64,000 nucleotides of DNA from Kiritimatiellia bacterium (GCA_027493775.1 JAOSKE010000003.1:744845-808844); one strand, 5' to 3'; positions 10,812-50,076 are shown, numbered from the stretch's first letter. Made by a program: numbers and translations. The notes: a model not told the origin generated them from the sequence alone.

Positions 10812-12474
10812 CTATCTCCGCTCCAACATCTCGCGGGCGTGTTGGAGGGTGACCTTGGTGAGGTCTTTGCCGCCGAGCATTCGGGCGATTTCGTCCACGC
10901 GCGATTTTTCATCGAGCGGCTCAACTTCCGTGAACGTGCGTCCATCGTGGACGCGCTTTACAACCGCGAAGTGCGTTGATCCCTGCGCGGCGACCTGCGG
11001 AAGGTGCGTGATGCAAATCACCTGATGGCTCGCGCCAAGCGCCGCAAGTTTTCGGCCGACCGCAATTCCCATCTCGCCGCCAACATTCGCGTCCACTTCA
11101 TCAAAAACAAGGAGTGGAATTTTGTCGTGTTTTGCCAACACCGCCTTTGTCGCAAGCATCACGCGGGAAATTTCGCCGCTGGACGCAATTTCGCGCAACG
11201 GCTTTTTTTGCCTCGCCCAGGTTAGGCGCAAATTCAAACGATACTTCGTCACAACCGGTCGGGCCCGGCTCCGCCTCACGTGTTGCCACGCCAAATGCGC
11301 CGTGCTGAAAGCCCAGTTCGCGGAGTTGCGTCGTCACGGCTGTTGCAAGCTCGTCCGCCACCGCGCGGCGTTTCTTTTGAAGCGCGCGGCCGACCGAAAG
11401 CAGCTCTTTGCCCGCGTCATCAATTTTCTTTTCAACCGCTACCAATTTCTCTCCACGTTGCGACAACTCCTTGAGCGCCTCGCGTGAATCTTCGAGAAGC
11501 TTAACCAGCCCAACAGCATCAACGCCGTATTTCCGCTTCAACCGCTGATACATCGCAAGGCGCTGCTCCAGCCAATCCAATCGCGCGGGATCGGCCTCCA
11601 CGCGATCCATCGCGTCGCGCATGGTTTCCGCAAGCGATTGAAGTTGTTGGGCGGTGGCACGAACCTCCCCCTTCCATTCCTCGGCATCGGGAAGCAGTCG
11701 TGAAAGTTCTTCCAGCGCCCGCTGTGCGCCAACTAAAGAATCGAATGCGTTGCCCTCCCCATCTTGAAGCGCACCAAGAACGCCTTGGCCCAACTCAAGA
11801 ATTCGCTGCGCGTGACTGGCGACGGCGTGCTCCTGCGCCACGGACTCATCCTCGCCCGCCTCCGGCTTCGCTTCTTCGAGTTCCTTGATTCGGAACTGAA
11901 GCAAATCCATTCGCGCGGAAACTTCTTCATCTCCGCCCTGCAGGGCATCGCGTTGAGATTCAAGTTCCCGCAGTACGCGATACTTTTCGGCACAGGCCGC
12001 CCGCTCCTTTTCGAGCGCGCCATACGCATCCAAAACATCCAGTTGAAATCGGGGGCTGAGCAACGATTGGTGATCGTACGGCCCGTGCATATCCACAAGC
12101 CGCTCGCCGAGCCGCTTCATCGTCTGCAGCGTGACGGGTGTGTCGTTGACCAGATTCTGCCCCGCGCCCGAATCTTTGACGATCCGGCGAATAATGAGCT
12201 GCCCTTCTTCGGCGGGGGGCAGGCCGAGTTCCTCCAGCAACGCCGGCAAATCCTTCAACGCGGTCACATCGAACACCGCCTCCGCGCCGCACGCCTCTGC
12301 GCCCGCGCGAATCCATTTCCGATCCGCGCGTTCGCCGAGCAACAATTTCAACGCGCCGATGAGAATGGATTTGCCCGCACCGGTTTCGCCCGTAATGACA
12401 TTCAGCCCGGCTCCCCACTCGATCCGGGCCGACTCTACCAACGCCAGATTTTTGACGCGCAATGAAAGCAGCAT
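10812..12474 (-). CDS. recN: DNA repair protein RecN, frameshifted
   Basis: RecN is an SMC-like ATPase in double-strand break repair. The head shows Walker A GETGAGKS (29-36), then HGPYDHQSLL, a long coiled coil, and C-terminal SSGEISRVMLATK (signature), LLVFDEVDANVGG (Walker B) and THLPQVAAQG. The frame breaks at a T7 run (11203-11209; A7 on the coding strand). Removing one A joins FAPNLGEAKK to PLREIASSGE. The start at 12474 puts MLLSLRVKNLALVES at the N-terminus, as in other RecN proteins. A degenerate paired palindrome lies 34 bp upstream. The break is probably a sequencing error, since both halves are well conserved. Confidence 0.85.
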
Positions 12475-12508
12475 GTTTGCAGCATACCAAATTCGATTTC
12501 CTGTACAT

Positions 12509-12555
12509 TTACAATCCCTGCAAATCCCGCCAAACACTTTTTCCAAACATGGAAA
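12509..12555. repeat. Degenerate paired palindrome element upstream of recN
   Basis: TTACAATCCCTGCAA at 12509-12523 and TTCCAAACATGGAAA at 12541-12555 are decayed copies of the TTCCAA-N3-TTGGAA unit. They start exactly 32 bp apart, like the cleaner pairs at 5217, 29361 and 50092. The element lies 34 bp upstream of the recN start codon. Confidence 0.5.
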
Positions 12556-19991: not shown

Positions 19992-20201
19992 ATGGAAGCG
20001 ATGGTCATTCTTGTTTGCATTACCGGCGGTGTGTCGCTGCTGTGCGCGCTGGGGGGCTGGGGCCTGGATATGCCGGAGCTGGTGTTGGTCGGATATATCG
20101 TCGGCACGGTGTGCGGGGCGCTGTTGGCGATCGTTCCGCTGTTTGTTTGGGCGGCCGTGCGCCGATTGCATAACGAGATCGCCGCGCAACGCCGCCGATA
20201 G
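19992..20201 (+). CDS. Small two-helix membrane protein, 69 aa
   Basis: Two hydrophobic segments (MVILVCITGGVSLLCALGG and LVGYIVGTVCGALLAIVPLFVWAAV) are followed by a basic tail (RRLHNEIAAQRRR). Size and topology would suit a class II holin, but many phage membrane proteins look like this, and its place next to the repressor also fits a superinfection-exclusion protein. No family was recognised. Confidence 0.5.
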   Translation: MEAMVILVCITGGVSLLCALGGWGLDMPELVLVGYIVGTVCGALLAIVPLFVWAAVRRLHNEIAAQRRR

Positions 20202-20428: not shown

Positions 20429-20861
20429 ATGTTAGGCCCGTGCTGTGTTCCGGCCGAAAAGCGGCGCACCGGTAGTTTTTACCTTTCTGCCGGTGCGCTG
20501 CTGATTTTTCTTGCCGCCAGTGTTGCATTCGCAGACCCATTCGGCGCGGCTGCGCATGCGCAAAACGAATCGCGGGGCGAATGGGTCACCAACCTGGTCT
20601 GGTTCATCGGCGGCGTCGCGGAGCTCGCTGACGATTATCGGATTCACGCGCCGCAAGCCTCCGCTGGAGGTCGAGTTCCTTCGCCGCGAGGAGGCTGAGA
20701 CTCGACTGCAAGGGCTGTCCAATAAAATCGACGCGCTCCGCGCCGAGATGCGCGCTGATCTCGCGTCGGTGGCCGTGGAAATGCGCGCATCGGACAAGGC
20801 GACCGCAGACCAGTTGCAATCCATATTTGAGCGACTCGGACAACTTAGGGGGGTTAAATAA
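20429..20861 (+). CDS. Mu gp25-like (DUF2730-type) membrane/coiled-coil protein, frameshifted
   Basis: The N-terminus has a membrane segment (LSAGALLIFLAASVAFA) and a second one broken by a one-base insertion near GG at 20620-20621. Removing a G gives LVWFIGGVASSLTIIGFTRRKPPLEVEF, then a charged coiled coil (LQGLSNKIDALRAEMRADLA ... ERLGQL). The RRxPPxExEF block followed by a coiled coil is typical of the DUF2730 proteins that precede gp26-gp27-gp28 in Mu-like phages. Function is unknown. It overlaps the next gene by TAATG. Confidence 0.6.
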
Positions 20862-23204: not shown

Positions 23205-24716
23205 GCCGGCGCAAGAATTTTATCGAGCAAACCAACCCGCTGCGCGGGCTGACACCGACGGCTGTGGTTAACTATATCGAGGCCGGGCAGCGCGGCGAGT
23301 TGCCGATGCTGATGTGGCTCTATTACATCATCGAGCAGAGCGACCCCGATCTCCTTGCCCTGGTCGAGCGGCGAACCTCGGCAGTATGCGAAATGGATTG
23401 GAACATCAACGTCGCGCCGAACGCGGGCGAAACGCAGAGCGCGGACGCCGGACTCGCGAAGACGGACTTGCGCGCGGCGTACGACAAAATCGAAAACCTC
23501 CAGCAGGCCATCGCGCATCTCGCGCTGGCGTCATTTAGAGGTTTCTCGATCTGCCAGCTTCAGGACGCGGACGGCAACCCCCGCCTCGCCGGGCAACGCA
23601 ACGCGCATTGAGTGTCTGCCGCACTGGAACTTTGTGCGTGATGGCATTCGCCCGGCCTTCCGGTGGAACCCGGACGCACAACAAACCTCATTCGACGCGC
23701 TCGCTGGTGAGCCGTTGGACCCAATTCGCGACCGACTGCTGATTCGCGTGGTCGAGCGCCCGATTAATCGGATCGCGTTGGTGAAGTTCATCCGGTCGAA
23801 TTTCACGCAAAAGGCGTGGTCGGATTATATCGAAAAGGTCGCGTCTGATGGGACCTTCATTACCGAGCCGCCGGGCATGACGGATGAGAAGAGGGAGGCG
23901 TTTGCGGCGAGCGCGGCGAACGCGTCGGAGGGCGGCGGCGGCACGCTCCCATACCAGTCCGATGTGAAGTTCGCGAACATGCAACGCGGTCTCGCGCCAT
24001 TCGAACCACACATGCGGTTCTTGCGCGAGCAACTCGTGATGGCAGGAACCGGCGGGCTGTTGACGATGCTATCGGAGCCGACGGGTATCGGCGGCGGCGC
24101 AACAGGTGCGCACGCGGATGCGTTCAGGACCATCGCGCGCAAAGAGGCCCGCGAGATTTCCGAGGTGTTCCAACGCGGCTTCGATAAACCGCTGTTGCTA
24201 TCACATTTTCCCGGCCAGCCGATCTCGGCGTGGTTCGAGTTGGCCTACCGCGAGGAGACGGACACCGGGGCGTTGACCAGTCAGGTGGTGGAACTCGCGC
24301 AGGTTTTCGACCTGGATCCGGATGAGATCGGCGAGAAGACGGGCCTGAAGTTGTCGCGGCGCGTCGTGCCAGCGCAGCCGGCTGCGTTTTCATTCAATTC
24401 CGCTCGCGACGCGGTGCGCGGAACGCGAGGCACGGAAAGCGCACAGGAGCGCGCAAACCAATCGCTCGTTAGCGAGGCGGTAGAGAAGACCCTCGGTGCG
24501 CGGCGTGGACTTCTGAAGGATTTTTTCGCGGACCTCGACGCGCAACCCGGCTCGCTGTCGGAAGCGCAGTTTCTGGACCGGCTAGAAAAACTTGTGGATG
24601 CGCTGCCCGAACTCATCGGTGACAGCGGACTCGATGACGCGCAATCCATCTACGAAGGGGTCATGGGCGCGGGCCTTGCGAATCAGATCGCTGCGGCATT
24701 GGAGGGCAGAACATGA
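23201..24716 (+). CDS. Mu gp29-like portal protein (DUF935-type), frameshifted
   Basis: The portal is the dodecameric head vertex through which DNA passes. The N-terminus (NPLRGLTPTAVVNYIEAGQRGELPMLMWLYYIIEQSDPDLLALVERRTSAV) is diagnostic of the DUF935/gp29 family. The frame breaks between 23578 and 23593 in C5 or G3; removing one base gives GN-x4-GNATRIECLPHWNF and continues with DRLLIRVVERPINRIALVKFI and GNxGGL-type segments to the end. GTG start overlaps the terminase stop. Repaired length about 504 residues, typical for the family. The last 90 residues are an acidic helical tail. Confidence 0.85.
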
Positions 24717-25216
24717 TCGCGCTCTATCGTGGTCGTTCATGGGTCTCTCGCGCTATCCGGTGGTACACATGGGGGCCATATAGCCATGCCAGTTATGTGG
24801 CACCAGACCTGGCATACGAGATTGAGTCATGGGGTCGCGGCGGCGTTCAGCTTCACGACCGCATCGGCGCGGCGCACACCGATGCGGACGTAATTGATCT
24901 ATACACCGTGGATGTGTCGGCGCAGCAGGCGCGCGTGATCGAGCAGTTTCTCCGCGAGCAGGTCGGCCGCCGATATGACTGGCACTCCGTGTTCCACTTC
25001 GTTTTGCGACGCACGGAGCATGTGCGCGATCAACAGCGCTGGTTCTGCTCCGAGTTGATTTGCGCCGCATATCGCGCGGCTGGCGTAGAGTTGCTCGCGC
25101 GACCGTGCTACTCCGTCTCCCCCTCGCTCCTTGGGTCGTCGCCGCTGCTACGTTTCGTGTCTAGCGGTACGCGCGTGAATCTCGATGCGATACGCAGAGG
25201 TGAATCCAATGCGTGA
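24713..25216 (+). CDS. YiiX-like (NlpC/P60-superfamily, permuted) cysteine peptidase
   Basis: The pattern WGPYSHASYV (His25) followed much later by RWFCSELICAAYRAAGV (Cys112) is the permuted NlpC/P60 order seen in YiiX/YebB-like enzymes, where the catalytic His precedes the Cys. Such enzymes cleave peptide or amide bonds in peptidoglycan or acyl groups. No signal peptide is visible. It overlaps the portal gene by 4 bp and opens a tightly overlapped cassette of membrane and lipoprotein genes, so a lysis or entry role is plausible but unproven. Confidence 0.7.
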   Translation: MIALYRGRSWVSRAIRWYTWGPYSHASYVAPDLAYEIESWGRGGVQLHDRIGAAHTDADVIDLYTVDVSAQQARVIEQFLREQVGRRYDWHSVFHFVLRRTEHVRDQQRWFCSELICAAYRAAGVELLARPCYSVSPSLLGSSPLLRFVSSGTRVNLDAIRRGESNA

Positions 25217-25337
25217 TCTCACGGCCTATTGCGTTGTGGTTTTGCTCGCGCGTCTCGGTCGGTGGATTGAACGTGCGAGTCTGCGCCTCGACCGTCACTG
25301 GTCCGTTGGCTGGTGGACTGTGGAGCGTGGCGAATGA
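25209..25337 (+). CDS. Small amphipathic membrane peptide, 42 aa
   Basis: This short frame (MRDLTAYCVVVLLARLGRWIERASL ... WWTVERGE) overlaps the gene before and the frame after, both by a few bases. The hydrophobic N-terminus and Trp/Arg-rich remainder could give a membrane-active peptide. It is too small for family assignment; the overlap pattern is the main support. Confidence 0.4.
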   Translation: MRDLTAYCVVVLLARLGRWIERASLRLDRHWSVGWWTVERGE

Positions 25338-25576
25338 CTCAGTTTAATCATTTAACCGGTATCGCTTCCATCGTTATCACATCTCGTCGCGCGTGTGTGA
25401 TTATGCGCCGCATGAATCGGGTCATCATCGCTGCAACAGTTCTTGTCGCCGCTCTCGCAGCGCACGGCTGCGCAGCGCGTCAACCCGGTTACGACTATCG
25501 CTGGACATCGCATCACAGCGCGGTCGGCGGAGACGATGGGACTACGACATACATCGGTATCGGGAGGACGTTTTGA
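25334..25576 (+). CDS. Small lipoprotein, possible outer-membrane spanin subunit
   Basis: The ATG at 25334 is coupled to the previous stop (ATGA), but a better signal peptide starts at the internal Met at 25412: NRVIIAATVLVAALAAHGC, with a lipobox-like AHGC. The mature part is short and rich in Tyr, His and Gly, ending in GIGRTF. Phage o-spanins (Rz1) are short lipoproteins like this and usually lie near lysis genes, but they are normally Pro-rich. The 25412 start may be the true one. Confidence 0.5.
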   Translation: MTQFNHLTGIASIVITSRRACVIMRRMNRVIIAATVLVAALAAHGCAARQPGYDYRWTSHHSAVGGDDGTTTYIGIGRTF

Positions 25577-25920
25577 TGAAGAGCAATAGCGGAGAGGTCA
25601 TCACGATGGTGCTGGTCGGGTTGGCGATTGGCTCGCTCGCGAGTGTGATACGCGCAAATTCGTGGGCGCAACAGCAGGCCAACATGCTTGGTACGGCCGT
25701 GCCAGTGCGCGCGTACATCGCCGAAAAACCGGTGGAAGCGCTCGCGCTTCCCGCGCTCGGAGCCGCTGCTGGTTGGGGACTATCAGAGCTGACATCGAAT
25801 GACGGTAAATCAAACGATTTGCAGCCGATATATGTGACGAGCGGTCGCGACACCACGCTGAGTATCTCCGGCCGAGATGGCAGCACGAGTAATACGCAAC
25901 GACAGGAGGACAACCGATGA
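25576..25920 (+). CDS. Phage membrane protein of unknown function, 114 aa
   Basis: A hydrophobic segment near the N-terminus (VITMVLVGLAIGSLASVI) is followed by a second weaker one (EALALPALGAAAGWGLSEL), then a polar tail rich in Ser, Asp, Asn and Gln. The start overlaps the lipoprotein stop (TGATG), and the stop overlaps the next lipoprotein start (ATGA). It could be a holin or an inner-membrane spanin partner, but it lacks the coiled coil typical of i-spanins. Confidence 0.5.
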   Translation: MKSNSGEVITMVLVGLAIGSLASVIRANSWAQQQANMLGTAVPVRAYIAEKPVEALALPALGAAAGWGLSELTSNDGKSNDLQPIYVTSGRDTTLSISGRDGSTSNTQRQEDNR

Positions 25921-26087
25921 TTAAACGCGCAATCGCCTTCGCGCTGCTTGCGGTAACGCTGAGTGGATGTGGTTCGCTGACCGGCGTGCAGCCGTATCCC
26001 GGTCCTGCGCGTCGTGATGACAACACCGAAATACCCGTGCCGCGCGGCATGGAGAACATCCCCAGACACCCGACGAGGCCAATATGA
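25917..26087 (+). CDS. Small lipoprotein, 56 aa
   Basis: The start is MIKRAIAFALLAVTLSGC, a textbook lipoprotein signal with lipobox LSGC. The mature peptide of about 38 residues contains several Pro and Arg residues (YPGPARRDD, PVPRGMENIPRHPTRP). Short Pro-rich lipoproteins in phage lysis regions are often Rz1-type o-spanins, and this one fits better than the gene at 25334. ATGA overlaps on both sides. Confidence 0.6.
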   Translation: MIKRAIAFALLAVTLSGCGSLTGVQPYPGPARRDDNTEIPVPRGMENIPRHPTRPI

Positions 26088-26839
26088 GCGAACACCTACG
26101 CTTTCGCGGGCTGGAGCCGACCCCGGTTGAGCAGCGGGTCTCGTTTCGCAGTCCTGGCTTCCCGGAGTGGGTACTATCACAGGACAATCGTTTCGCTGCT
26201 GCCAACCGCAACAACGATTGGTTCGACGAGGTGATCGCGCTGCCCGCGCAGATTTATCCGAACTGCTTCGTCGTCTGTTGGGTCAACCTCATCATGGACC
26301 TGATCCGACGCGAGTTCGGTGCCGACGCAATCCCCGAGGGCTACGCGCTCGATTACAACGGCATTTATGAACGCCTCGACGCGGCGCGAGGCGGCGACCG
26401 AACGGCGGGCGGGCAAATGGACACCGTGCTCAAATGGGCGCCTGAGCATGAAGGTTGGTTTGAGGACGTGCGCTGGACGCCAGCATATTTCCCCTATCGC
26501 CCCGATTTCGCGGAACGCATGTTAGCCGTGATGCCCTTTTGCATCGGCATGGCGACCCACAACGGTTGGTTCGCACCGGACGATAACGGATACATCCGGC
26601 CGGGCTTGCCAAATCCGACGGCAGGCCACGCGGTTCACGTCGTGGACCATCAGTGGAGAGGCAACACCGGTTACTCATTTTTCCCGCTGCAATGGGGATA
26701 CGATATCGGACACAACGGGTATGCCTGCATGGCCGATGAGCACGTCGTCCAGTCGCAGCTTTCGGACTGTGTGACGCTGTATCTACCAGACGGAGTCGGG
26801 CGCTGGTGGGAGGAAAAGCTTGTGGAGATTCCGTCGTGA
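26084..26839 (+). CDS. Papain-like (C1-type) cysteine peptidase
   Basis: The order of motifs matches papain: IYPNCFVVCWVNL with C65-W66 (compare SCW of papain), then PTAGHAVHVVDH (His182) and FFPLQWGYDIGHNGYACM (residues 200-216), which parallels the NSWG-x3-W-G-x3-GY block. The Asn of that block reads Gln or Leu here. No signal peptide is visible. C1 peptidases are rare in phages. In this cassette it could act on envelope protein, on the capsid, or as an anti-host factor. The next gene starts inside its stop. Confidence 0.65.
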   Translation: MSEHLRFRGLEPTPVEQRVSFRSPGFPEWVLSQDNRFAAANRNNDWFDEVIALPAQIYPNCFVVCWVNLIMDLIRREFGADAIPEGYALDYNGIYERLDAARGGDRTAGGQMDTVLKWAPEHEGWFEDVRWTPAYFPYRPDFAERMLAVMPFCIGMATHNGWFAPDDNGYIRPGLPNPTAGHAVHVVDHQWRGNTGYSFFPLQWGYDIGHNGYACMADEHVVQSQLSDCVTLYLPDGVGRWWEEKLVEIPS

Positions 26840-26973
26840 CCGCGCCAAATCAATCAGGCGGCCCGATCCGCCGCAAGACGCCCCAAGACCTGGACTCGTG
26901 GGGGATCGCCGTTTTGCAAGACCAACTGGCTAAAATGCAATGGCATCACGTGTGCATGGGGCGGGCGAAATGA
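26836..26973 (+). CDS. Small phage protein, 45 aa
   Basis: A GTG start overlaps the papain-like gene stop (GTGA), and the stop overlaps the protease/scaffold start (ATGA). The product (VTAPNQSGGPIRRKTPQDLDSWG ... CMGRAK) is soluble and basic and has no known motif. The perfect two-sided coupling argues that it is translated. Confidence 0.45.
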   Translation: MTAPNQSGGPIRRKTPQDLDSWGIAVLQDQLAKMQWHHVCMGRAK

Positions 26974-28430: not shown

Positions 28431-29355
28431 ATGAGCAATCGCACACAGGGGTCGCTGAATCCGACCCTCACCAACTACGCGAAGGGCATCGCCCAAGAGC
28501 GCGCAAGCGCCGTCGCGGAGTTCATTGCGCCGACCGTCTCGGTCGGTGCGAGCATCGGCCAGTTCAAAAAGTTCGACGACAAGAACGCCTTCCAGGTGCT
28601 CGACGCGTCGCTTCCGGACGGGGCCGATCCGAAGCGCATTGAGTTCGGCGTGAATGACGGCACGTTCAACTGCCGGCCCTACGCCCTCGAAGTGCGCGTC
28701 ACAAAGGCTGGAGCTCGACGCCATCGGCGACAGCGACCCGCTGGACATCCAGCAGGCCAAGATCGACACCCTCGTCTCGTCGGCCGTTCTGGCTCACGAG
28801 GACGCGGTGCTGACCAAGGCCAAGGCCGGCCTCTCAGCCATCAATGGCAAAGGCAACTGGTCGAGCGGCTCCGTGGATCCAATCCAGGAACTGGACGAGC
28901 AGATCATGTCTATCGCGGTGGAAACGGGCATGATGCCCAACTCCATCCTGATGGGCATCGGTGCCTGGAACGTGTTCCGTAATCACCCCAAGGTGATTGC
29001 GCGCATGCCCGGCGCGGCGCTGATCGGCGTCACTGCCGCGCAGGCGAGCCAGTTCCTGCTGAACCCCGGCCTGGAGATCCGCGTTGGAATTCTGTCCAAG
29101 GACACCGTCAAGTTCGGCGCGACGAAAAACGCGACGAATATCGTCGGAGCCGAGGCATTCGTGTTCCATCGCGGCGAAAACCCGAGCACCTACGACCCGA
29201 GCTTCGCGAAGACGTTCCGCGTCAACGGCAGCGGGATCGAGTCCGTGTACAGCTACGACGCCCCGAACGGGCTGTATCAGGGCCACATCGTGTATTGGAG
29301 CGTTGATACGCAGGTCGTGTCGCTCCCGTGTGCGCGGAGACTCAGCATCACATAA
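28431..29355 (+). CDS. Major capsid protein, frameshifted
   Basis: AAAGGAG lies 13 bp before the ATG. The N-terminus (NPTLTNYAKGIAQERASAVAEFIAPTVSVGASIGQFKKFDDKNAF) and the later PLDIQQAKIDTLVSSAVLAHEDAVLTK and NSILMGIGAWNVFRNHPKVIARM read as a phage coat protein of the HK97 fold (long N-arm, spine helix, P-domain ending in VYWSVDTQVVSL). The frame breaks at GG 28710-28711; dropping one G gives VTKAELDAIGDSD. Repaired length about 307 residues, like Mu T (305). It is followed by a paired palindrome. Confidence 0.75.
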
Positions 29356-29360
29356 CGAAT

Positions 29361-29409
29361 TTCCGGGGGTTGGAAGCGTGTTGCAAGACCGTTTCCAACC
29401 CTTGGAAAC
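29361..29409. repeat. Paired palindrome element inside the prophage
   Basis: TTCCGGGGGTTGGAA (29361-29375) and TTCCAACCCTTGGAA (29393-29407) start exactly 32 bp apart. The second extends to a 19-bp dyad, 29391-29409. In RNA, GGGTTGGAA can pair with TTCCAACCC across the spacer. The element ends 23 bp before the next gene and follows the capsid stop. Three host loci in this window carry the same geometry. Confidence 0.75.
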
Positions 29410-29432
29410 AACCGTGCAACCAAAGGAAGAAA

Positions 29433-29819
29433 ATGAAAAAAATGAAAATCGCACGCGGTGCGCTGGCCGCCGCAGCAGTTATGGCCGTCTCCCTTACGAC
29501 GGCATACGCCGTCACGCCTGCGCGTCTCGCGACGACGGCGGAGAACGGAGTCGCTACGTTCTCGAACGACGCGAACTACGTCGTATGGAAACCGCTCCGC
29601 GTTGACGCAGTGGGCATCCAGCCCTCTAGCAACGCAGTGACGGTCTCCGTCGTGCAGGATGGCATCACGAACGTCATCGGCTCCGGCACGGCCAGCAGCG
29701 GAGCCGTCGGCGTCGTCATCACGAATACGGCATACGTGTTCAAGGGCGGCGTCATTACGGTCGCCGCCGGAACCAACAGCACGGCGATCGTGCGCGTGAT
29801 CTCCGAGGTCTATCCGTAA
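29433..29819 (+). CDS. Small secreted beta protein in the head operon, 128 aa
   Basis: The start MKKMKIARGALAAAAVMAVSLTTAYA is a classic Sec signal peptide; the mature part is Val/Thr/Ser-rich and beta (VWKPLRVDAVGIQPSSNAVTVSVVQDG ... GGVITVAAGTNSTAIVRVISEVYP). AAAGGAAGAA lies at the right distance. A secreted protein between capsid and gp36 genes is odd for a phage. It may decorate the host envelope, or the hydrophobic N-terminus may serve in virion membrane contact. No family was recognised. Confidence 0.65.
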   Translation: MKKMKIARGALAAAAVMAVSLTTAYAVTPARLATTAENGVATFSNDANYVVWKPLRVDAVGIQPSSNAVTVSVVQDGITNVIGSGTASSGAVGVVITNTAYVFKGGVITVAAGTNSTAIVRVISEVYP

Positions 29820-29862: not shown

Positions 29863-30321
29863 ATGGCCAACTGGAGCACAATCACGGAGGCGGATCTGAA
29901 GGACGCGAAAGTCGCGGCCCTTGTTGACGCCTTTAAGAGCGCCGCGCTTGGTGTTGGCCAGACCAACCCCATTCCTGCCGTGATCGCGAACGTGGTCGCG
30001 CGTATTCGCGCGGAGATCAAGGGCTGCTCGAACAACGCGCTGGACGCGGACGCGAACAAGATCCCCGCCGACCTCAAATCGCTCGCGTGCCGGATGATCG
30101 TGCGCGAGTGCCAATCGCGCCTACGTCTCGCGCTCAAAGAGGACGAGAAGGAAGAGTGGCGGCAGGACGTGCGCTATCTTGAGCGCATCGCCGCTTGCGA
30201 TGTGCCCGTTGCCGCGCCGGACAGCCCGGAGACGGATCCGACGGTTCAGAGCGCCGCGCCGGTCCCGGCTATCGCCGCGCCGCGTCGTCAATTTTCACAA
30301 GCCGGACAGGACGGCCTTTAA
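29863..30321 (+). CDS. Mu gp36-like (DUF1320-type) head-tail protein
   Basis: The 152-residue protein opens MANWSTITEADLKDAKVAALVDAFKSAAL and has a central helical region ending CRMIVRECQSRLRLALKEDEKEEW, with an RYLERIA motif. This matches the DUF1320/gp36 layout (two helical hairpins with a WxTIT-type start), a head-completion connector. The Ala/Pro-rich tail may be disordered. Gene order capsid then gp36 fits Mu. Confidence 0.65.
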   Translation: MANWSTITEADLKDAKVAALVDAFKSAALGVGQTNPIPAVIANVVARIRAEIKGCSNNALDADANKIPADLKSLACRMIVRECQSRLRLALKEDEKEEWRQDVRYLERIAACDVPVAAPDSPETDPTVQSAAPVPAIAAPRRQFSQAGQDGL

Positions 30322-31541
30322 TGGAACTGCTCGCACACATCGCGCCGCTGGACGAAGCCGTGAAGAAATTCGGCGCACGTAGCATCGTCGCCTCGAAGGC
30401 GCGCACAGCGGAGTGGGAAAAGGTTGCGCTCGATCTCCGTGACCGTGCGTTTTTTTCCGCCCGTGTGGACCGTGCGCGGTTCCTGAGGACGGCGCAGGAA
30501 AAGCTCAAAGACGCCATCTCGCAGCGGCGCGAACAGGTCGCACACGGCGAGGCGATTGTGGACCGCAGCAGCTTTATCGGCGACCTGCGCAAGTTGGCCC
30601 TGCGAGAGGGACTCAGCGACGGCACCGGCGGCTTAACCGACGTGGCCTCGCGTACTCGTCTCGGCCTGATCTACGATATGCAGCTTCGCATGGCGCAGGG
30701 CTACGCGCAGCGCAAGATGGATCTCGACCCTGACGTGCTCGACGCATTCCCAGCGCAAGAGTTGGTGCGCGAGGAGGAACGGAATGTTCCGCGCGATTGG
30801 GAGGCCCGCTGGACCGCAAGGGGCGGCGAGCTGATTGCGGGGCGGATGGTCGCGCTCAAGACCGACCCGATCTGGACGAAAATTTCGCGCTTCGGCACGC
30901 CCTGGCCGCCGTTCGACTTCGGCAGCGGCATGGGACTCAACGACGTGAGCCGCGACGAGGCCGAGCAACTCGGACTCATCTCACCCGGCGCACCGGTAGC
31001 GGCGGAAGACGAATACTTCAACAAGGAGCTTGCCGCGTCCGCCGAAAATGTAGATGTGGACTTCCTGAAGGCATCCTTCGGCGATCAGGTGCGGATCAAG
31101 GACGGCAAAGCCGAATGGGTCGGGAATTTGATCGGCGATCTCTTTGACCAAGTCGCACCCATTTGGGAGTCAGGCGGGAAGTTTGATACCAAGGAATTCA
31201 GGGGCAGAGCCGTTGATTTTGGGCGAGCCACCCCGACTGCGGTTGAAAAAACGTCGGGTATGGCCGACCTTGCGGGGGCCCGGATGCAGCTCCGACCCGA
31301 CAACATTTTCCACATGCTGAAATCGCACGGGGCCGAAAAGAACAAGGCGCAAATGTCTCTCACAAAAGACGACGTGGAACTCCTGCCATTCGTATGGCGC
31401 GATCCGGACGCGGTTGAAGCGGGAGACAAGCCGCGCTCCCTCGTCTTCAAAAAAACGATCGGTGGCACAACGTATCTGGTGGCCTGGGACGAGATGCACA
31501 ACAGGACCTACCAAGCAAACTCGATGTGGGTGAAAAAATGA
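30321..31541 (+). CDS. Minor head (MuF-like) protein fused to a putative PBECR-type nuclease domain
   Basis: Residues 1 to about 225 are helical with RTRLGLIYDMQLRMAQGYAQR and the diagnostic FGTPWPPFDFGSGMGLNDVSRDEAEQLGLI of phage minor head proteins. The C-terminal 85 residues (LRPDNIFHMLKSHG ... LTKDDVELLPFVWRDPDAVE ... KKTIGGTTYLVAWDEMHNRTYQANSMW) match the phage-type Barnase-EndoU-ColicinE5/D-RelE-like (PBECR) fold, with a likely catalytic His in the first helix and an Asn/Thr near the end. Such fusions may be injected RNase effectors. TAATG coupling with gp36-like gene; in Mu this gene precedes I, so order is rearranged. Confidence 0.75.
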   Translation: MELLAHIAPLDEAVKKFGARSIVASKARTAEWEKVALDLRDRAFFSARVDRARFLRTAQEKLKDAISQRREQVAHGEAIVDRSSFIGDLRKLALREGLSDGTGGLTDVASRTRLGLIYDMQLRMAQGYAQRKMDLDPDVLDAFPAQELVREEERNVPRDWEARWTARGGELIAGRMVALKTDPIWTKISRFGTPWPPFDFGSGMGLNDVSRDEAEQLGLISPGAPVAAEDEYFNKELAASAENVDVDFLKASFGDQVRIKDGKAEWVGNLIGDLFDQVAPIWESGGKFDTKEFRGRAVDFGRATPTAVEKTSGMADLAGARMQLRPDNIFHMLKSHGAEKNKAQMSLTKDDVELLPFVWRDPDAVEAGDKPRSLVFKKTIGGTTYLVAWDEMHNRTYQANSMWVKK

Positions 31542-32657: not shown

Positions 32658-33265
32658 CCCATATCAATCTCATTGTGGATGTGGAGCGCCGCCGCCTGGT
32701 GACGGAGCTCGGCGCCTTCGACAACGAAGCCCCGGCCTTCGTGCGCGGCGACGACGTGCTGCTGCGTATCCGTTTCGTCACGGTGGACCGCTCCGCGCAG
32801 CCCTATGCGCTGTCGCCTGTCGAGTTCGACCCCGACACCGTATTTGCCTTCGCGGGCAAGTCGTCGTTTGGCGGCGCATTACAGGTCTTTGCCGGAAACG
32901 ATGACTGGAATAACGATGGGGATTGGGACGAGGTTGACCCCGAAGTCGGCAAGTGTTGCGTGCGCGTGAACTTCAACGGCGAATCGCTGCTCGCCGCGAT
33001 CGGCAGCCAGCAGGCGCTGCGGATGTTTTTGACATCTCCGCTGCGTTCGGCGGCCTGAACACCACGCTGCTGCTCCTGGATGTGCCGCTGGCCAACGACG
33101 TGCTGCGCGGCGACGAGACGGTTCCCGATCCGGTGGAGGACTACGCCACGCGCGCGGGAAACGGAGGCGTATGTTTCCGACCGCATCGGCGCCGGGATCC
33201 AACTGGTCGAGGAAGACGGCAAAATGGCTGTTTATGTCAACAGTATAAAACGAGGGGAAATATGA
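32654..33265 (+). CDS. Phage structural protein, two frameshifts, about 203 aa
   Basis: The start MTHINLIVDVERRRLVTELGAFDNEAPAFVRGDDVLLRIRFVTVDRSAQPY reads as a beta-rich virion protein. The frame is lost at T5 (33026-33030), where one T seems missing, regained as DISAAFGGLNTTLLLLDVPLANDVLRGDETVPDP, then lost again at GGG (33156-33158, one G extra) and regained as ETEAYVSDRIGAGIQLVEEDG. After both repairs the gene ends with TGA at 33265, overlapping the next start. Tail or baseplate role is likely from position only. Confidence 0.55.
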
Positions 33266-34719
33266 TGCGTGGTTTCTTGGGGATATTGGTCTGCGTCTTA
33301 CTTGCTGCGTCGGTACATGCAGAGCCGAGCCGCTTGCCGCACGGGGTGGAGTCGCCGGAGATCACGCGGCGCGGGGCTGACGTGATGGTGGAATCCACGC
33401 TGGTTGTCGCGCCGTTCGACGGCGGCGCGATGTTTGCAGCCACGAACCTGCCCATCTACCTTGGCGACGACGAGCACGTGGAGACCGTCGCGCCGCTCGC
33501 CGGAACTGTCGGCGCACGGCTGCGCCTCACGAATGAGTATATGCGCGCGAATGGCGCTATCGTGATTTCGCAGGGCGGCTTGGATCTCGCGAGCGGGAAT
33601 GCCGGGTCGTTGGCTGGCGGCGCGGATGTGCTTGTTATGAAGTGGGCGTACAGTGCGGCGACAAACCCCATAACGATCACGTATGTGGCCGCGCCGCTGC
33701 TGCCGCAGTTCGAGGACACGAACGATGTACCCATCCTCGCCGCGCCGCCGATCATCAGTGAGCTGGAGTTCTACACGCTGGCCGATACGTCGCTCGCCGA
33801 GCGCGTGACGGAGCTGAGAGACCAGGTGCTGCGCGTGGATGATCCCGTCGGCGCGCGCGACGCGGCGAACAAAGCGTACGCCGACCAGGTCGCGAACAGC
33901 GCGTATCAGTCCGCGCACCAGCAGATTTATCAGCGCGAGGGTGCGACGGACCTCGCGGGCAACCCGTTGCAATTCTCGCCGCGCTATGAAGTGGTCGGCG
34001 TGAGCAACGACCTGCAAATCAAGTATGGCGGCTACGTGATCGGGGCCTTCGAGGGTGGCAACGCAGCAATCCAGCCCGCCATCCTCGACTGGCGTGTCAA
34101 CGGCGCGACGCAGGTCACGATGACCGTGCGCACGTCAGAACTCTATCTCAACGACCTCTCCGTGCAGTGGTCAAGCAACTGGTGGGGAGGGTGGGCCACC
34201 GTCGCGACCAACGTCATCACGAGGCAGATGCTCGACGAATACACCGCCCGGCTGGTCATCACGATGGCGGTTGACAACCTCGGCTACCTGCGCTTGCTCG
34301 ACGGTTCCGGGGCCATCGGCGCGGTGCAACTGCGAGTCCAATCCTTGCACGTGCTGGATGACGTGATGGTCGGCGGCCGCATCTACCTCGGCTCGACGAA
34401 CGTGTGGATCGGCTACAACGAGCAGGAGGAGGTCGTAATCAATTCGACCGACGGCACAAACGGCGGCCCGAACGAGATGTTACTAATCTCGGGCCAAACA
34501 ATTCGGAACAATTACGGGGGCAGCGCGTGGTTCGATGAATACACCGTGCGGCTCCAAGATGATGCGCAGTTCGGCGGGCTGCAAACAGTCGGCTTGCAAA
34601 TGGAGTCGATCGAGGGCGTGCGGTTCCTGAACACCGGTCACATGTACTACGACTCCACCAACGACGTGCTGAAGGTCTGGTCCGGCAGCGCGTGGAAGAA
34701 TTTTTCGCCGGTGCCGTGA
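33262..34719 (+). CDS. Tail-fibre-like protein with Sec signal peptide, 485 aa
   Basis: A signal peptide (MMRGFLGILVCVLLAASVHA) precedes a long beta-rich chain with a fibre-type repeat motif DPVGARDAANKAYADQVANSAYQ near residue 192 (compare the DAxNKxYVD linkers of phage tail fibres). The C-terminus (HMYYDSTNDVLKVWSGSAWKNFSPVP) matches the last strand of many fibre tips. A cleavable signal on a fibre is unexpected, since virions assemble in the cytoplasm. Start overlaps the previous stop (ATATGATG). Confidence 0.7.
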   Translation: MMRGFLGILVCVLLAASVHAEPSRLPHGVESPEITRRGADVMVESTLVVAPFDGGAMFAATNLPIYLGDDEHVETVAPLAGTVGARLRLTNEYMRANGAIVISQGGLDLASGNAGSLAGGADVLVMKWAYSAATNPITITYVAAPLLPQFEDTNDVPILAAPPIISELEFYTLADTSLAERVTELRDQVLRVDDPVGARDAANKAYADQVANSAYQSAHQQIYQREGATDLAGNPLQFSPRYEVVGVSNDLQIKYGGYVIGAFEGGNAAIQPAILDWRVNGATQVTMTVRTSELYLNDLSVQWSSNWWGGWATVATNVITRQMLDEYTARLVITMAVDNLGYLRLLDGSGAIGAVQLRVQSLHVLDDVMVGGRIYLGSTNVWIGYNEQEEVVINSTDGTNGGPNEMLLISGQTIRNNYGGSAWFDEYTVRLQDDAQFGGLQTVGLQMESIEGVRFLNTGHMYYDSTNDVLKVWSGSAWKNFSPVP

Positions 34720-38681: not shown

Positions 38682-39200
38682 ATGAACCTTAACATCTTCA
38701 AAGAAAATTATACCGGTCCGATTTTCCTGAAGCGGGTGTTCAGTCACATGAACGCGGTCAGCCGCTGCCTTAACAACACGCGCGGCATCGGCGGCGTCCG
38801 CGTAACGCCCAATGAGTTCGGCGGCCTCGACATCTCCGCCGACGGGTCCGGCGATTTCGACCTCTCGAAATTCGCGTTCGGCTGGGGCGCGCCGAACGCG
38901 AATTTCGAGATCGCCGACAACCAGGTATGGATCGCGGAGGGTTACGTCGAGGGACGCTACGGTTACCATCGTGTACCGGGGGCGGTGGTAAACGTCGGCG
39001 GCAACGCGCAGTCTAAAACCATCATCATCGTAACGGGCGATCAGAACGGCGCGGTCATCGAGCAGAACTCCGTGGCGGAAAATGCGTTCACAGGCGACAC
39101 CAGTCATACGTTCCAGCGCGCGTTGTACCGCGTCTATTTGCGCGACGGGAAGGTCGTGTTGGATCAAGTCATGGCGGGTGTCGGGGGCATCGTCGTATGA
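38682..39200 (+). CDS. Phage tail-region protein, 172 aa
   Basis: The protein begins MNLNIFKENYTGPIFLKRVFSHMNAVSRCLNNTRGIGGVRVTPNEFGGLDISAD and is beta-rich, with repeated turns of the type GxVxNVGGNAQSKTIIIV. It looks like a virion fibre-associated or baseplate protein. Its start overlaps the leader of the opposite-strand secreted protein, and its stop overlaps the next start by ATGA. Confidence 0.5.
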   Translation: MNLNIFKENYTGPIFLKRVFSHMNAVSRCLNNTRGIGGVRVTPNEFGGLDISADGSGDFDLSKFAFGWGAPNANFEIADNQVWIAEGYVEGRYGYHRVPGAVVNVGGNAQSKTIIIVTGDQNGAVIEQNSVAENAFTGDTSHTFQRALYRVYLRDGKVVLDQVMAGVGGIVV

Positions 39201-41585
39201 GGTCGCTCGCGCTGCTCGCACTCCTAATTCCGACGCTCGCATTTGGGTACAGCGAGACAATCCCGGCCACAAATTGGCTGGGGTTGTTCAGTGCGGTCGC
39301 GGAGCGGAATGAGGCGACGTGGTTCAATAATTCGGGGACCACCAACAACTACTACTGGGATAATCAACTAGATCAACGCGATCCGCTCGTGTGGCGCCAG
39401 CCAGTGACGATCGCGCTCGGAGTCGTGCCGTCGCCGTGGCAGCCAATGATCTGCGTGACTAACGGCACCAACGTCCTATGTTGGACGAACTACATTGCGC
39501 TCACCACAGAGACGCGGGACACAACGAACTGGTTTGACCCGGAGGCGTACGCGCCGCAGATCGCGACCAACTTCGTGTGGTATAACGGCGATGACAAATT
39601 GACGGATTTCTCGCTCCCGGAAGCGCTCACGGTCACGCCGAGTCGCGTGGCGATTCAGGCGTTGGATTTCCAGATCGTCAACTTCCTACCATTCTTTGTT
39701 GATATTGATCGCATGAAAAGCGTGGCCAACGCATCCGATCTGGATGGCGAAGAGCTGATTGACGCATGGTTCTCGACGCCGATGCGGACGAATTATTACT
39801 GGGTGGATACCGATCACAACTGGGTTGAAGACACCTGGTACGGCGTCCCTGAGTACCCGTCTGCATTGCCCCTGCTCACAGTCTCGTCCGCGTGGGCAAA
39901 CGCCGGCATCGAGGCCAACCGCTGGCCGATCGAGACGGTGACAAACACGCGATCCTACTGGGGTTGGGAGGTCGGCATGTTTAACACGTACACGACAGCC
40001 CCGATCACGACGGTCACGACCCAATACGAGTATCGGTATGGGTTTAATCTCTCGCCAACCGCAACGCCGTGGCGGGTCCTCCTCGGCGATGTGTATTGGG
40101 GCATGACCAACTCCACGAATTGGGTGGTTGTCAACGTCGTAGATGGCGTGACGCACACAACCCGCTGGCGTCAAGCGTGGATTGGCCCATCGCCGCGCGC
40201 TCGTGGATACGTCCTGCATTGGCAGCGCGCGGAATTGCCGCCGGTACGCCTACTCATGGGCTCCCGATGGCTACGCCACAAATATGATGCGCTTTATCCC
40301 GCCGGATGTTGAGACATCATGGAGTTCTAACAGCGCACTCAACGGCTGGTCCGTCGATTTTTCAGGCGCCGCATTCGCCGGTACGTCAAACGCCTGGCGG
40401 TGGGAGGATTCGCGGACGGTGACTGTGCCGTTTACTGATATGGACTTCACGAACTCGACCGAGGCCATATATGAGATCGCACCCGTCAACGAGTCGAATG
40501 AGTTCTCGTGTTACTACGCGCTCACCAATCTGGTGATTAATGATTGGCCGGCAACGTCACTGATCTACTCCAACGACGTGCTCATATCGGGCTTGCCCGA
40601 TCTGATCGGCGCTCGACTGGAGATCACACTCGATGGCACGAGCTACGAACTGACGGGACTCCCTAATCGCGATGGCGGATACGGCGCACCGTGGGACTGG
40701 GATTTGCGACCCGAGGACTATTCGCAGCGTGTCGCGGTTGTGCGACAGCTCCAGTGGATGACTACGGCCTCGCATGGCAACCCGCGCCGCCTGACGGCGC
40801 TTCGTGGATGGGTGCCGAGCGGCTCCTATCCGACGTATGACAGTTTCTTCCTCGGCGACATGTCGCCGCCGCCCGTAATCCCACCGTATGACCCCGACAT
40901 CATAACCAACCTCAACTACTACGGCTCGTGGTATATGGGCAGCGTCGATATCTGGCACACCACAAAGAGATGGTACTGGGACGATGACATTGACGACTAT
41001 GTGTATTACTTTACCAACGATTGGGGCGCATTTCGTCCAGAGACAATCATCGATTGGCCAGACCTGGTGTCGTATGCGCTCTCCAACCTCTCGCCGCGAC
41101 TCAACGCAGACGTTACGCTAGCGGGGCGTGTCACTCGCAACGACTATCCGGTTGAGATCGATCTAGAGGGCGGCTGGGAGAGTCCCACGGGGCGTTTCGT
41201 GCAAGTAGTTGCGCCCCCATCGTTCCCGGCACACCTAGTCCACGGCGCCAGTTATTACGACAAGGACAGCAATAAGATCACCTGGAGCAACGTGCTGACG
41301 ATTGCGACCGATCCGGCGGGTCCGGACGAATTATATGCCCGCTCCCGCATCACGATACCGTGGGAGGGCGGCCGCAACCCGCTAACCCTCGACGATTTCC
41401 AGTGGATTGACTTCGATCCCTCCCGCTTTGCCTGGCTCGCGTCATATTGCAACTACCCAGGTCGGGATCCGTATTGGGCGGGCGAGAGCGAGACGCTATA
41501 CTGGCTTCCGGCCACCCGCCGATTTCTGCGGGATGAGACGTGGGTCATCCGATGGCAGTTCGACAGCCTGCCATACCCCCCATAA
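39197..41585 (+). CDS. Large signal-peptide-bearing tail protein, probable receptor-binding or fibre protein, frameshifted
   Basis: A short signal peptide (MRSLALLALLIPTLAFG) precedes a roughly 795-residue chain very rich in Trp, Asn, Tyr and Thr, with many WxxxTN and TNxYYW turns, as in adhesins and fibre tips. The frame slips by one extra base near 40230-40250; dropping a G near the CCGG-TAC segment joins LPP to YAYSWAPDGYATNMMRF. The last 156 residues lie in the first copy of the 547-bp terminal repeat and end with SLPYPP. As the last gene before the right end it would be a natural host-range locus. Confidence 0.6.
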
Positions 41586-41663
41586 CCCGACTGATCGCCT
41601 CGAAAATCCCGGAATCGTTGCCAAATCGATGTCAAATGTTCCCAAACCTGTTGGCGGAATACA

Positions 41664-42133
41664 GCTAGCGGGGCGTGTCACTCGCAACGACTATCCGGTT
41701 GAGATCGATCTAGAGGGCGGCTGGGAGAGTCCCACGGGGCGTTTCGTGCAAGTAGTTGCGCCCCCATCGTTCCCGGCACACCTAGTCCACGGCGCCAGTT
41801 ATTACGACAAGGACAGCAATAAGATCACCTGGAGCAACGTGCTGACGATTGCGACCGATCCGGCGGGTCCCGGACGAATTATATGCCCGCTCCCGCATCA
41901 CGATACCGTGGGAGGGCGGCCGCAACCCGCTAACCCTCGACGATTTCCAGTGGATTGACTTCGATCCCTCCCGCTTTGCCTGGCTCGCGTCATATTGCAA
42001 CTACCCAGGTCGGGATCCGTATTGGGCGGGCGAGAGCGAGACGCTATACTGGCTTCCGGCCACCCGCCGATTTCTGCGGGATGAGACGTGGGTCATCCGA
42101 TGGCAGTTCGACAGCCTGCCATACCCCCCATAA
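41664..42133 (+). pseudogene. Duplicate 3' fragment of the large tail gene
   Basis: This second copy encodes the same C-terminus (LAGRVTRNDYPVEIDLEGGW to SLPYPP) without the 640 upstream residues. It has no ribosome-binding site of its own and one extra C near 41870 that shifts the frame. It is a remnant of the terminal duplication. Confidence 0.8.
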
Positions 42134-42153
42134 CCCGACTGATCGCCTCGAAA

Positions 42154-42210
42154 ATCCCGAATCGTTGCCAAATCGATGTCAAATGTTCCCAAACCTGTTG
42201 GCGGAATACA
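42154..42210 (-). repeat. Right-end inverted transposase-binding sites and phage terminus
   Basis: Read on the minus strand from the CA at 42209-42210, the end is TGTATTCCGC, then CAACAGGTTTGGGAAC, then TTGACATCGATTTGGCAACG. These match the left-end motif in inverted orientation. A second identical array ends at 41663, the first-copy terminus. Confidence 0.7.
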
Positions 42211-47983: not shown

Positions 47984-48871
47984 ATGAGTATGACGTTGAG
48001 AAATTTTGGGAACACGGGACTGCGCGTTTCCGCACTCGGCTTCGGCGGTTCGCATATCGGTGGCGACGACATCACGAACAGCGATGCCGCGAACATTTTG
48101 CACAGCGCAATTGACCTCGGCATCAACCTAATTGATACCGCGCGGTCCTACGACTTGAGCGAGGAGCGAATCGGGCTCGCCCTCGGCGCACGTCGAAAAG
48201 AGATCATTCTTTCCACAAAAATAGGATACGGCATCGCTGGCTTCACAGATTGGACGGCGGAGATTATTTCCGCAGGGATCACGGAGGCGTTGCGCCTGCT
48301 CCGCACGGACTACCTCGATATCGTCCATCTCCACTCCTGCCCGCTCCACACGTTGAAAAACAGCGGCGTCGCGGAAGAATTACAGCGCGAGGTGCAGTCG
48401 GGTCGAATTCGCATCGCTGCGTATGCAGGCGACAACGAAGAAGTGGAGTGGGCAGCGGCATCCGGACTCTTCGGCAGCGTCCAATGCTCCATCAACATCT
48501 GCGACCAGCGCCCCATTTCACACACATTGCCGACGGCAATGGAAAAACAACTCGGCGTCATCGCAAAGCGTCCGCTGGGAAATGCGCCGTGGAATCGTGC
48601 CGCCAAACCAAAAGGCGGAACAACGCTCCAAAACTGGGAACGATTTCACGAAATGGGGATGCACGATTGGGGCCTGGATTGGGCCGATGTCGCGCTCCGC
48701 TTCACCGCCTTCACCCCCGGCGTCCACTCCTGTATCGTCGGAACCCGCAACCGCGACCACCTCAAGGCCAATGCAGAGGCCGTCCAGCGCGGGCCACTGG
48801 ATGCGGAACTCGTCGCGCGCATTCGTGACACATTCCAAACGCACGGGACAGACTGGAAGAGCGGAATTTGA
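47984..48871 (+). CDS. Aldo/keto reductase
   Basis: The protein starts MSMTLRNFGNTGLRVSALGFGG and contains the catalytic tetrad: Asp51 in NLIDTARSYD, Tyr56, Lys79 in STKIG, and His in IVHLHSC near 119. NADPH-binding IAKRPLGN and IVGTRNRDHL are at the end. It belongs to the group of short bacterial AKR (about 295 aa). Substrate unknown; the sugar genes nearby suggest a sugar or polyol. The frame is intact. Confidence 0.85.
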   Translation: MSMTLRNFGNTGLRVSALGFGGSHIGGDDITNSDAANILHSAIDLGINLIDTARSYDLSEERIGLALGARRKEIILSTKIGYGIAGFTDWTAEIISAGITEALRLLRTDYLDIVHLHSCPLHTLKNSGVAEELQREVQSGRIRIAAYAGDNEEVEWAAASGLFGSVQCSINICDQRPISHTLPTAMEKQLGVIAKRPLGNAPWNRAAKPKGGTTLQNWERFHEMGMHDWGLDWADVALRFTAFTPGVHSCIVGTRNRDHLKANAEAVQRGPLDAELVARIRDTFQTHGTDWKSGI

Positions 48872-48929
48872 TTTCTTCTTTGCTCGTACGCGGGTTAGAC
48901 TCACTTTAACGATTAACCAAGGAGTTTTG

Positions 48930-50076
48930 GTGCGCGTTTGTTTGGACATCCAATCTGCGATAGGCGCGCGCGCTGGCGTGGGTCGCTACACGAAGTTGCT
49001 CGCAGAACACCTCGCCCCGCTTCGTGGCGCAAATAATTTTTCCCTCTTTCATTTCGATTTTCACCAGCGCGGCCACTCGCTCACTACCGGCGATACGCCG
49101 GTTCGCTCCTGCCGCTGGATGCCTGGTCGCTTTGCACAAAAGGCGTGGAAAACCATCGGCTGGCCGCCCTACGATTGGTTTTCCGGAAGCGCGGACGTAT
49201 TTCACTTTCCCAATTTTATCCGCCCACCGCTCAAGCACGGCGCATCCGTGGTCACCATTCACGACCTCGCGTTTCTGCGGTTTCCCGAAACGATCGAAGA
49301 AAAAAATCTCGCGTATCTGAAGGGTCAAATCGAACAGACCGTACGCAACTCCACCGCGATCATCACCGTCTCCGAATTCACCGCGCGTGAGGCGCGTGAG
49401 CTGCTCAACGTTCCCGAATCAAAGCTCCACCCGATTCATTCGGGATTGGACCCCGCTCTTGCAGCGCCCCACCCCGGATGCAACCAAGGCGCTGCGAAAA
49501 CGTCTCAAGCTCGAACGCCCCTACCTGCTCTCCGTCGGCACGCTGGAGCCGCGAAAGAACTATCCGTTTCTAATTGAGGTTTTTGACCGTCTCGAAAAAT
49601 TTGATGGCGACCTAGTCATCGCCGGTCGGCGCGGATGGAAGTTTGAACCCATCTACGAACGCATCGCGCACTCTCCGCGCTGCGACCGCATCCGTGTCAT
49701 TGAGGATTTGGGAGAAGGCGATCTGCCCGCGCTTTACGGCGGGGCAGAATTATTTCTGCTTCCTTCACTCTACGAAGGGTTTGGTTTCCCGCCCCTCGAG
49801 GCGATGGCCTGCGGCACTCCCGCGCTCGTGACGCCGGGCGGCTCATTGGAGGAAGTGTGCGGAGGGGGCGCGATTGTTTTGCCCGACGGCAACGCGGAGC
49901 GGTGGGCGCAAGAAATCACCGCGCTCCTACAAGCGCCCAGTGCGCGCGATGAGCTGCGTCAGCGCGGTGCCGATTTTGTCACGCGCTATTCTTGGCGCGA
50001 GACGGCGCGAAAAACCTGGGCCGTGTACGAACAGGCCCACGCGATCTATCAGGCGGAGCGCACACCGTCCGCATAA
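48930..50076 (+). CDS. GT4-family glycosyltransferase, frameshifted
   Basis: The GTG start at 48930 has AAGGAG 5 bp upstream. The N-terminal domain (VCLDIQSAIGARAGVGRYTKLLAEHL ... VVTIHDLAFLRFPE) and C-terminal domain (LLSVGTLEPRKN ... LPSLYEGFGFPPLEAMACGTPALV) are those of GT4 enzymes, including the EGFGFPPLE (E-x7-E) donor-binding motif. The frame breaks at C4 (49467-49470); dropping one C gives LAAPTPDATKALRKRL. It probably transfers mannose or a similar sugar during cell-surface glycan assembly. First of three GT4 genes. Confidence 0.85.

Follow-up and report, generated by a model that had tools for sequence, protein, structure and literature searches.

Lysis of diderm hosts by phages is usually explained by the functions of a holin, an endolysin and a spanin, with LysB as a further factor in mycobacteria. 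Canonical NlpC/P60 enzymes cleave peptidoglycan. Lipids, conversely, are the ligands or substrates of the published permuted members of this family: a fatty acid was bound by YiiX (PMC3142127), LnsA acts in lipoprotein N-acylation (PMC7387801) and Tox-Act1 is a phospholipase (PMC12994826), and Xu et al. argue that the S1 site of YiiX is ill-suited to cell-wall substrates (PMC3142127). That an enzyme cutting lipid bonds can take part in lysis is known from LysB (PMC5707550). Among the other systems relevant here, the spanin lipoprotein Rz1 of phage lambda contains 10 Pro in 40 aa (PMC6139136), and gp25 and the lysis genes 22-25 of phage Mu have been described (PMC9239132). In this study, a stretch of 64,000 nucleotides from a Kiritimatiellia bacterium (the window) was analysed, in which a Mu-like prophage carries, inside its head operon, a seven-gene cassette that is moderately likely, judging from its predicted products and their relatives, to represent a host-lysis (egress) module with a proposed lipid or lipoprotein-acyl mechanism.

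Genomic setting and organisation of the cassette

The source genome comprises 3.2 Mb in 5 contigs, the window spanning positions 744845-808844 of contig C3, and the prophage is Mu-like by gene content: a TniB/AAA-type MuB relative and a transposase-like gene lie on the minus strand of the element, followed on the plus strand by terminase, Mu portal, protease I, capsid, Gp36 and tape-measure-like genes. Apparent frameshifts split phage genes (the portal near 23560, the capsid near 28690 and the frames at 20429-20861) and also the host genes at 11101-12546 and 48423-50076. Since host genes are broken in like manner, these frameshifts are probably sequencing or assembly indels, and the notion that the breaks in portal and capsid prove a dead prophage was dropped. 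On the right side of the element, a near-exact tandem duplication of approximately 547 bp (41117-42210), whose copies differ by single-base shifts, may be an assembly artefact. Signal-peptide-like starts, which are unusual for virion proteins, were observed on the structural-region genes 29328-29819, 32953-34719 and 39197-40312, and some counterparts in two other loci (L016 and L145) start in the same manner. Additionally, Pfam recognises a PBECR3 nuclease domain (3e-8) in the minor-head-type ORF 30195-31541, which by this domain content is a polymorphic-toxin-like fusion.

The original prediction placed seven coupled frames between the portal and protease genes, and all seven were recovered. 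They fill 24713-26973 on the plus strand, bounded by the end of the Mu-type portal ORF at 24716 and by the start of the Mu-like protease I ORF at 26970, and encode, in order, a YiiX-like enzyme, p42, lip1, mem, lip2, a C1 papain relative and p45. All eight junctions, including those with the portal and protease genes, overlap by 1-8 nt. Seven of these are of the predicted ATGA, GTGA or TGATG type: ATGA joins portal to YiiX gene (24713/24716), p42 to lip1 (25334/25337), mem to lip2 (25917/25920), lip2 to the C1 gene (26084/26087) and p45 to protease I (26970/26973), TGATG joins lip1 to mem (25576) and GTGA joins the C1 gene to p45 (26836/26839), leaving the junction between the YiiX gene and p42, at which the overlap is 8 nt (25209/25216). 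Coding potential was assessed with a codon model built on phage structural genes, six frames being compared per ORF. The stated frame ranked top of the six for each cassette ORF; the scores of lip1 and lip2 were weak (-0.05 to -0.08 per codon), and that of p42 was nearly tied with one reverse frame (0.13 versus 0.12).

The two predicted papain-fold proteins

The first gene (24713-25216, plus strand) encodes a protein of 167 aa with no apparent signal peptide, which matches phrog_1128 (1.4e-29), a family placed by PHROGs in the category of moron and host takeover. As a single sequence the protein falls below the Pfam cut-off (15 versus 27 bits). An alignment search for YiiX-like genes yielded 256 viral stretches and 16 genome contigs, and seven other genomes of the phylum contain matches at 27-48% identity. 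The only convincing matches of a 42-sequence family profile to solved proteins were 3KW0 (5.7e-9) and 2IF6 (1.4e-7), both of which are permuted NlpC/P60 proteins. H25, E38, Y88 and C112 are invariant across the 42 aligned sequences and, counted along the profile alignment, coincide with His49, Glu64, Tyr127 and Cys154, the catalytic set of 3KW0 as numbered in PMC3142127. The permuted NlpC/P60 assignment and the His25 and Cys112 of the original prediction are thereby borne out, with Glu38 and Tyr88 completing the set, and fold family and active-site residues together identify the product of gene 1 as a permuted NlpC/P60 enzyme of the YiiX-like type. Given the lipid ligands and substrates of the published permuted members, lipid or lipoprotein-acyl chemistry appears likelier for this protein than peptidoglycan peptidase activity.

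The sixth gene (26084-26839, plus strand) encodes a protein of 251 aa which shows no signal peptide. In family searches the protein alone matched 3OIS only weakly (0.0077) and Pfam C1 below its cut-off (0.17; 12.4 versus 20.7 bits), and hhalign against the set of phage C1 proteins returned 0.0011 at a probability of 20%. A profile combining it with 14 phage C1 proteins matched 3OIS at 7.8e-92, and the protein occupying the same place in locus L030 is a clear C1 peptidase (5e-17). In the alignment with these 14 proteins, C65 and H182 are retained, the Asn-Ser of C1 enzymes is represented by Leu202-Gln203 and the position of the oxyanion Gln is a gap; the catalytic Asn is Leu because LQWG replaces the NSWG of C1 enzymes. 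The papain-like peptidase that had been predicted here therefore keeps its Cys65 and a His, but neither the usual Asn nor the oxyanion Gln. No close homologues were detected in phage records, viral contigs or genome contigs, nor in the rest of a 388-genome sample of the phylum. AlphaFold2 models reached a pLDDT of 34 for the protein alone and 42 with 15 sequences, too low to judge the active site, and the cathepsins listed by Foldseek for the latter model (E about 1e-3, TM about 0.25) are partly circular, since the input alignment consisted of C1 proteins. Gene 6 would encode a very divergent xylellain-like C1 papain relative, whose activity may be weak or altered, or which may be a pseudo-enzyme. 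Contrary to the description of the two peptidases as unrelated, both are predicted to be papain-like in fold, one of them circularly permuted.

Small proteins and lysis gene candidates

The remaining five genes, all on the plus strand, encode small proteins. The 42-aa p42 (25209-25337) has one weakly hydrophobic segment (KD19 maximum 1.01), and p45 (26836-26973), which starts with GTG, is recognised as a 45-aa ORF with its overlaps; neither has a family match in Pfam, PHROGs or NCBIfam. Of the two lipoproteins originally predicted, lip2 (25917-26087; 56 aa) is upheld by its LSGC motif, the only one to fit the published lipobox consensus; lip1 (25334-25576), a possible lipoprotein with a hydrophobic segment (KD19 2.20) and an uncertain start (25334, 25403 or 25412), carries AHGC, which departs from that consensus. 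The mature part of lip2 comprises 39 aa with 8 Pro and resembles Rz1 in size and composition. The 114-aa mem (25576-25920) has an N-terminal hydrophobic segment (KD19 2.14 at residues 7-25) and a second, weakly hydrophobic stretch, and no coiled coil is obvious by eye. It is a candidate inner-membrane partner of lip2, and together the two proteins resemble, rather than belong to, the known spanin pairs.

Outside the cassette interval, a protein of 69 aa with two hydrophobic segments (19992-20201, plus strand; KD19 2.53) represents a holin candidate. It has no confident family assignment and, like p42, matches no holin family (PHROGs and NCBIfam for the 69-aa protein). Two overlapping ORFs (20429-20861, plus strand) together would encode a protein with an N-terminal transmembrane segment and a coiled coil, for which a family match confirming a likeness to Mu gp25 was not found.

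Gene neighbourhoods in other phages

A comparison of gene neighbourhoods, as the original prediction had suggested, revealed that the YiiX and C1 pair recurs between portal and protease genes in two other Mu-like contigs. The order in L030 is portal, YiiX, lipoprotein, C1 and protease I, and that in L126 is portal, YiiX-family protein (family HMM 5e-6; no Pfam match), C1 and protease I. The two genes are also adjacent in L054 (a 369-kb contig) and L176, both unrelated contigs. A YiiX-like gene was present in 7 of 101 C1 loci, five of the seven being L030 or L126 again and the 101 including the same contigs counted more than once. The pair is recurrent, yet not the rule among C1 genes.

According to PHROGs, nine genes directly adjoining YiiX in other phages are endolysins; the corresponding tally for control genes cannot prove the absence of endolysins among them, as 25 of 119 families are listed. 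Across 95 YiiX loci, 22 endolysin-like genes were identified, 21 of which lie within 700 bp of YiiX, where uniform placement would put about 2.7; the searches used ten endolysin sequences, picked for adjoining YiiX, and one amidase, and these queries account for ten of the 22 hits. When the query loci were removed, 11 of 12 endolysin-like genes were within this distance, some of them in closely related contigs. Furthermore, a lipoprotein gene, called by a simple lipobox rule, is the immediate neighbour of YiiX in 19 of 81 non-redundant loci versus 6 of 419 control genes (Fisher 1e-11), and overlaps the start of YiiX in the Lentisphaerae loci L016, L018 and L021. The idea that such YiiX-adjacent lipoproteins are unimolecular spanins was rejected, their second segments being weakly hydrophobic in most cases. 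Relatives of YiiX also adjoin transmembrane/coiled-coil proteins or, in some other phages, follow the capsid gene. A gene of L061 is 70% identical over 71 residues to one of the window phage; in this locus YiiX is flanked by a transmembrane/coiled-coil gene on one side and by TerS/TerL-like genes on the other, which is where Mu carries its lysis genes. Among C1 genes, that of L140 is adjoined by an Amidase_2 gene (5e-21) and a weak holin match, that of L143 is near a holin_6_1 match just below its cut-off, and that of L181 is 25 bp from a lysozyme relative; most other C1 neighbours were uninformative.

A set of loci (L016, L018, L019, L021-L024, L231 and L233) encodes a terminase, a Mu-type portal, protease I and a capsid protein and terminates in a pair of lipoprotein and YiiX genes; tail genes were not seen within the stretches examined. 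Four copies of elements with this ending are present in genome G081, with a replication-type gene set upstream. These are possibly tailless capsid-encoding elements.

Proposed function and alternative explanations

The context and homology of the cassette, on which its interpretation as a lysis module rests, favour this function, for which we infer the timing of expression, the export, the substrate and each step as follows. Placement in the head operon would cause the cassette to be made late. The 19992-20201 protein, perhaps with the product of 20429-20861 or p42, would open or weaken the inner membrane, which would allow the two papain-fold proteins, lacking signal peptides, to reach the envelope. 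There, the Cys-His-Glu site of the YiiX-like enzyme would attack acyl bonds in membrane lipids or in lipoproteins, weakening the outer membrane or its attachment, while mem and lip2 would form a spanin-like pair; the C1 protein, provided that it is active, would cut an envelope protein or peptide.

Lysis was one of the guesses of the original prediction, and it gains support from YiiX-like genes that adjoin endolysin and lipoprotein genes and from the few C1 genes that adjoin amidase, lysozyme or holin genes. The recurrence of the YiiX and C1 pair and the Pfam scan of this element, in which no endolysin domain was detected, are likewise in line with the lysis reading. The portal-protease interval, however, is an unusual slot for lysis genes, and a peptidoglycan-cleaving enzyme was not identified in the window. 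The suggestion of a protease in place of a muramidase survives in part only, because the literature favours lipid or lipoprotein-acyl substrates for YiiX; additionally, the YiiX of relatives often accompanies an endolysin and the C1 protein is devoid of two helper residues.

A related explanation, in which the C1 or YiiX protein is itself an endolysin that cleaves peptidoglycan peptides after holin action and so replaces a muramidase, is considered unlikely. It would agree with the cleavage of peptidoglycan by canonical NlpC/P60 enzymes, with the sub-threshold holin-family match near the C1 gene of L143, and with a Pfam scan in which no known endolysin domain was detected in the 52 ORFs of the prophage or in the 34 ORFs of the L126 contig, the bearer of the same YiiX and C1 pair (undescribed or frameshift-broken endolysins would be missed by such a scan). 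The claim that no conventional lysozyme lies elsewhere in the phage holds for the 52 ORFs scanned, among which a standard endolysin, named in the original prediction as the contrary result, was sought and not found. Against this explanation, a separate endolysin accompanies YiiX in many relatives, the window C1 protein is without the usual Asn and Gln, and the S1 site of YiiX is regarded as ill-suited to cell-wall substrates (PMC3142127).

Less probable still is a role for YiiX in adding or removing acyl chains on the neighbouring lipoproteins, which would change the surface of the lysogen, for instance in phage exclusion. While the adjoining lipoprotein genes, the LnsA precedent (PMC7387801) and the filing of the family by PHROGs under moron and host takeover are in line with such a role, endolysin neighbours are frequent, and the overlap of cassette genes with head genes suggests late rather than lysogenic expression. 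It is very improbable that the enzymes belong to the virion or serve in head assembly, for example by entering with the injected DNA or by acting on the prohead, since the portal-protease I position in three Mu-like phages and the location of YiiX after the capsid gene in others are outweighed by a position that differs among phages, a maturation protease that the phage already possesses, lipoproteins that fit a virion role poorly and lysis genes that are the neighbours elsewhere. No positive evidence was gained for the envelope-entry and host-takeover roles that had also been raised.

The proposed lysis role may extend beyond this prophage. It is conceivable, if rather doubtful, that YiiX-type enzymes constitute a widespread and unrecognised class of phage lysis proteins which act on lipids or acyl anchors, working together with small lipoproteins, and which in some Mu-like phages replace the endolysin-spanin set in conjunction with C1 proteins. 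If true, an acyl-type enzyme that recurs beside lipoproteins in lysis cassettes would offer an enzymatic means of breaching or loosening the outer membrane, a PHROG family currently classed as moron would gain a function, and the question of the missing endolysin in these Mu-like phages would become testable. A published statement of a link between YiiX, lipoproteins and lysis was not found in the literature covered, from which subscription journals were mostly excluded.

Comparison with known systems

The YiiX-like protein is akin to the YaeF/YiiX-like enzymes (MEROPS/Pfam C92; 2IF6 and 3KW0) in its profile match, its His-Glu-Tyr-Cys order and its four catalytic positions; in contrast to these, it is phage-encoded, falls short of the Pfam threshold as a single sequence, and itself carries neither a signal peptide nor a lipid anchor, being coupled instead to separate lipoprotein genes. 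The C1 protein has Cys and His in common with xylellain-type C1 peptidases (3OIS), whereas their catalytic Asn and oxyanion Gln are missing from it. LysB of mycobacteriophages is a possible analogue, as an enzyme that cuts lipid bonds in a third lysis step (PMC5707550), although fold, host and substrate differ and the function of LysB is established, while that of the YiiX-like protein is proposed.

With the two-component spanins (lambda Rz/Rz1 and Mu gp23/gp23.1), the cassette shares a short Pro-rich lipoprotein gene that overlaps the end of a gene encoding an N-terminal hydrophobic segment; mem and lip2 differ from these in having no sequence match, in the lack of a clear coiled coil in mem, and in sitting with two enzymes inside a head operon. 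Finally, compared with the Mu lysis genes 22-25, no gp22-like endolysin was found in the corresponding slot of the window phage, but the small membrane protein gene and the gp25-like frames at 20429-20861, which are like Mu gp25 (DUF2730) in position and layout only, lie in the customary place, upstream of the terminase genes.
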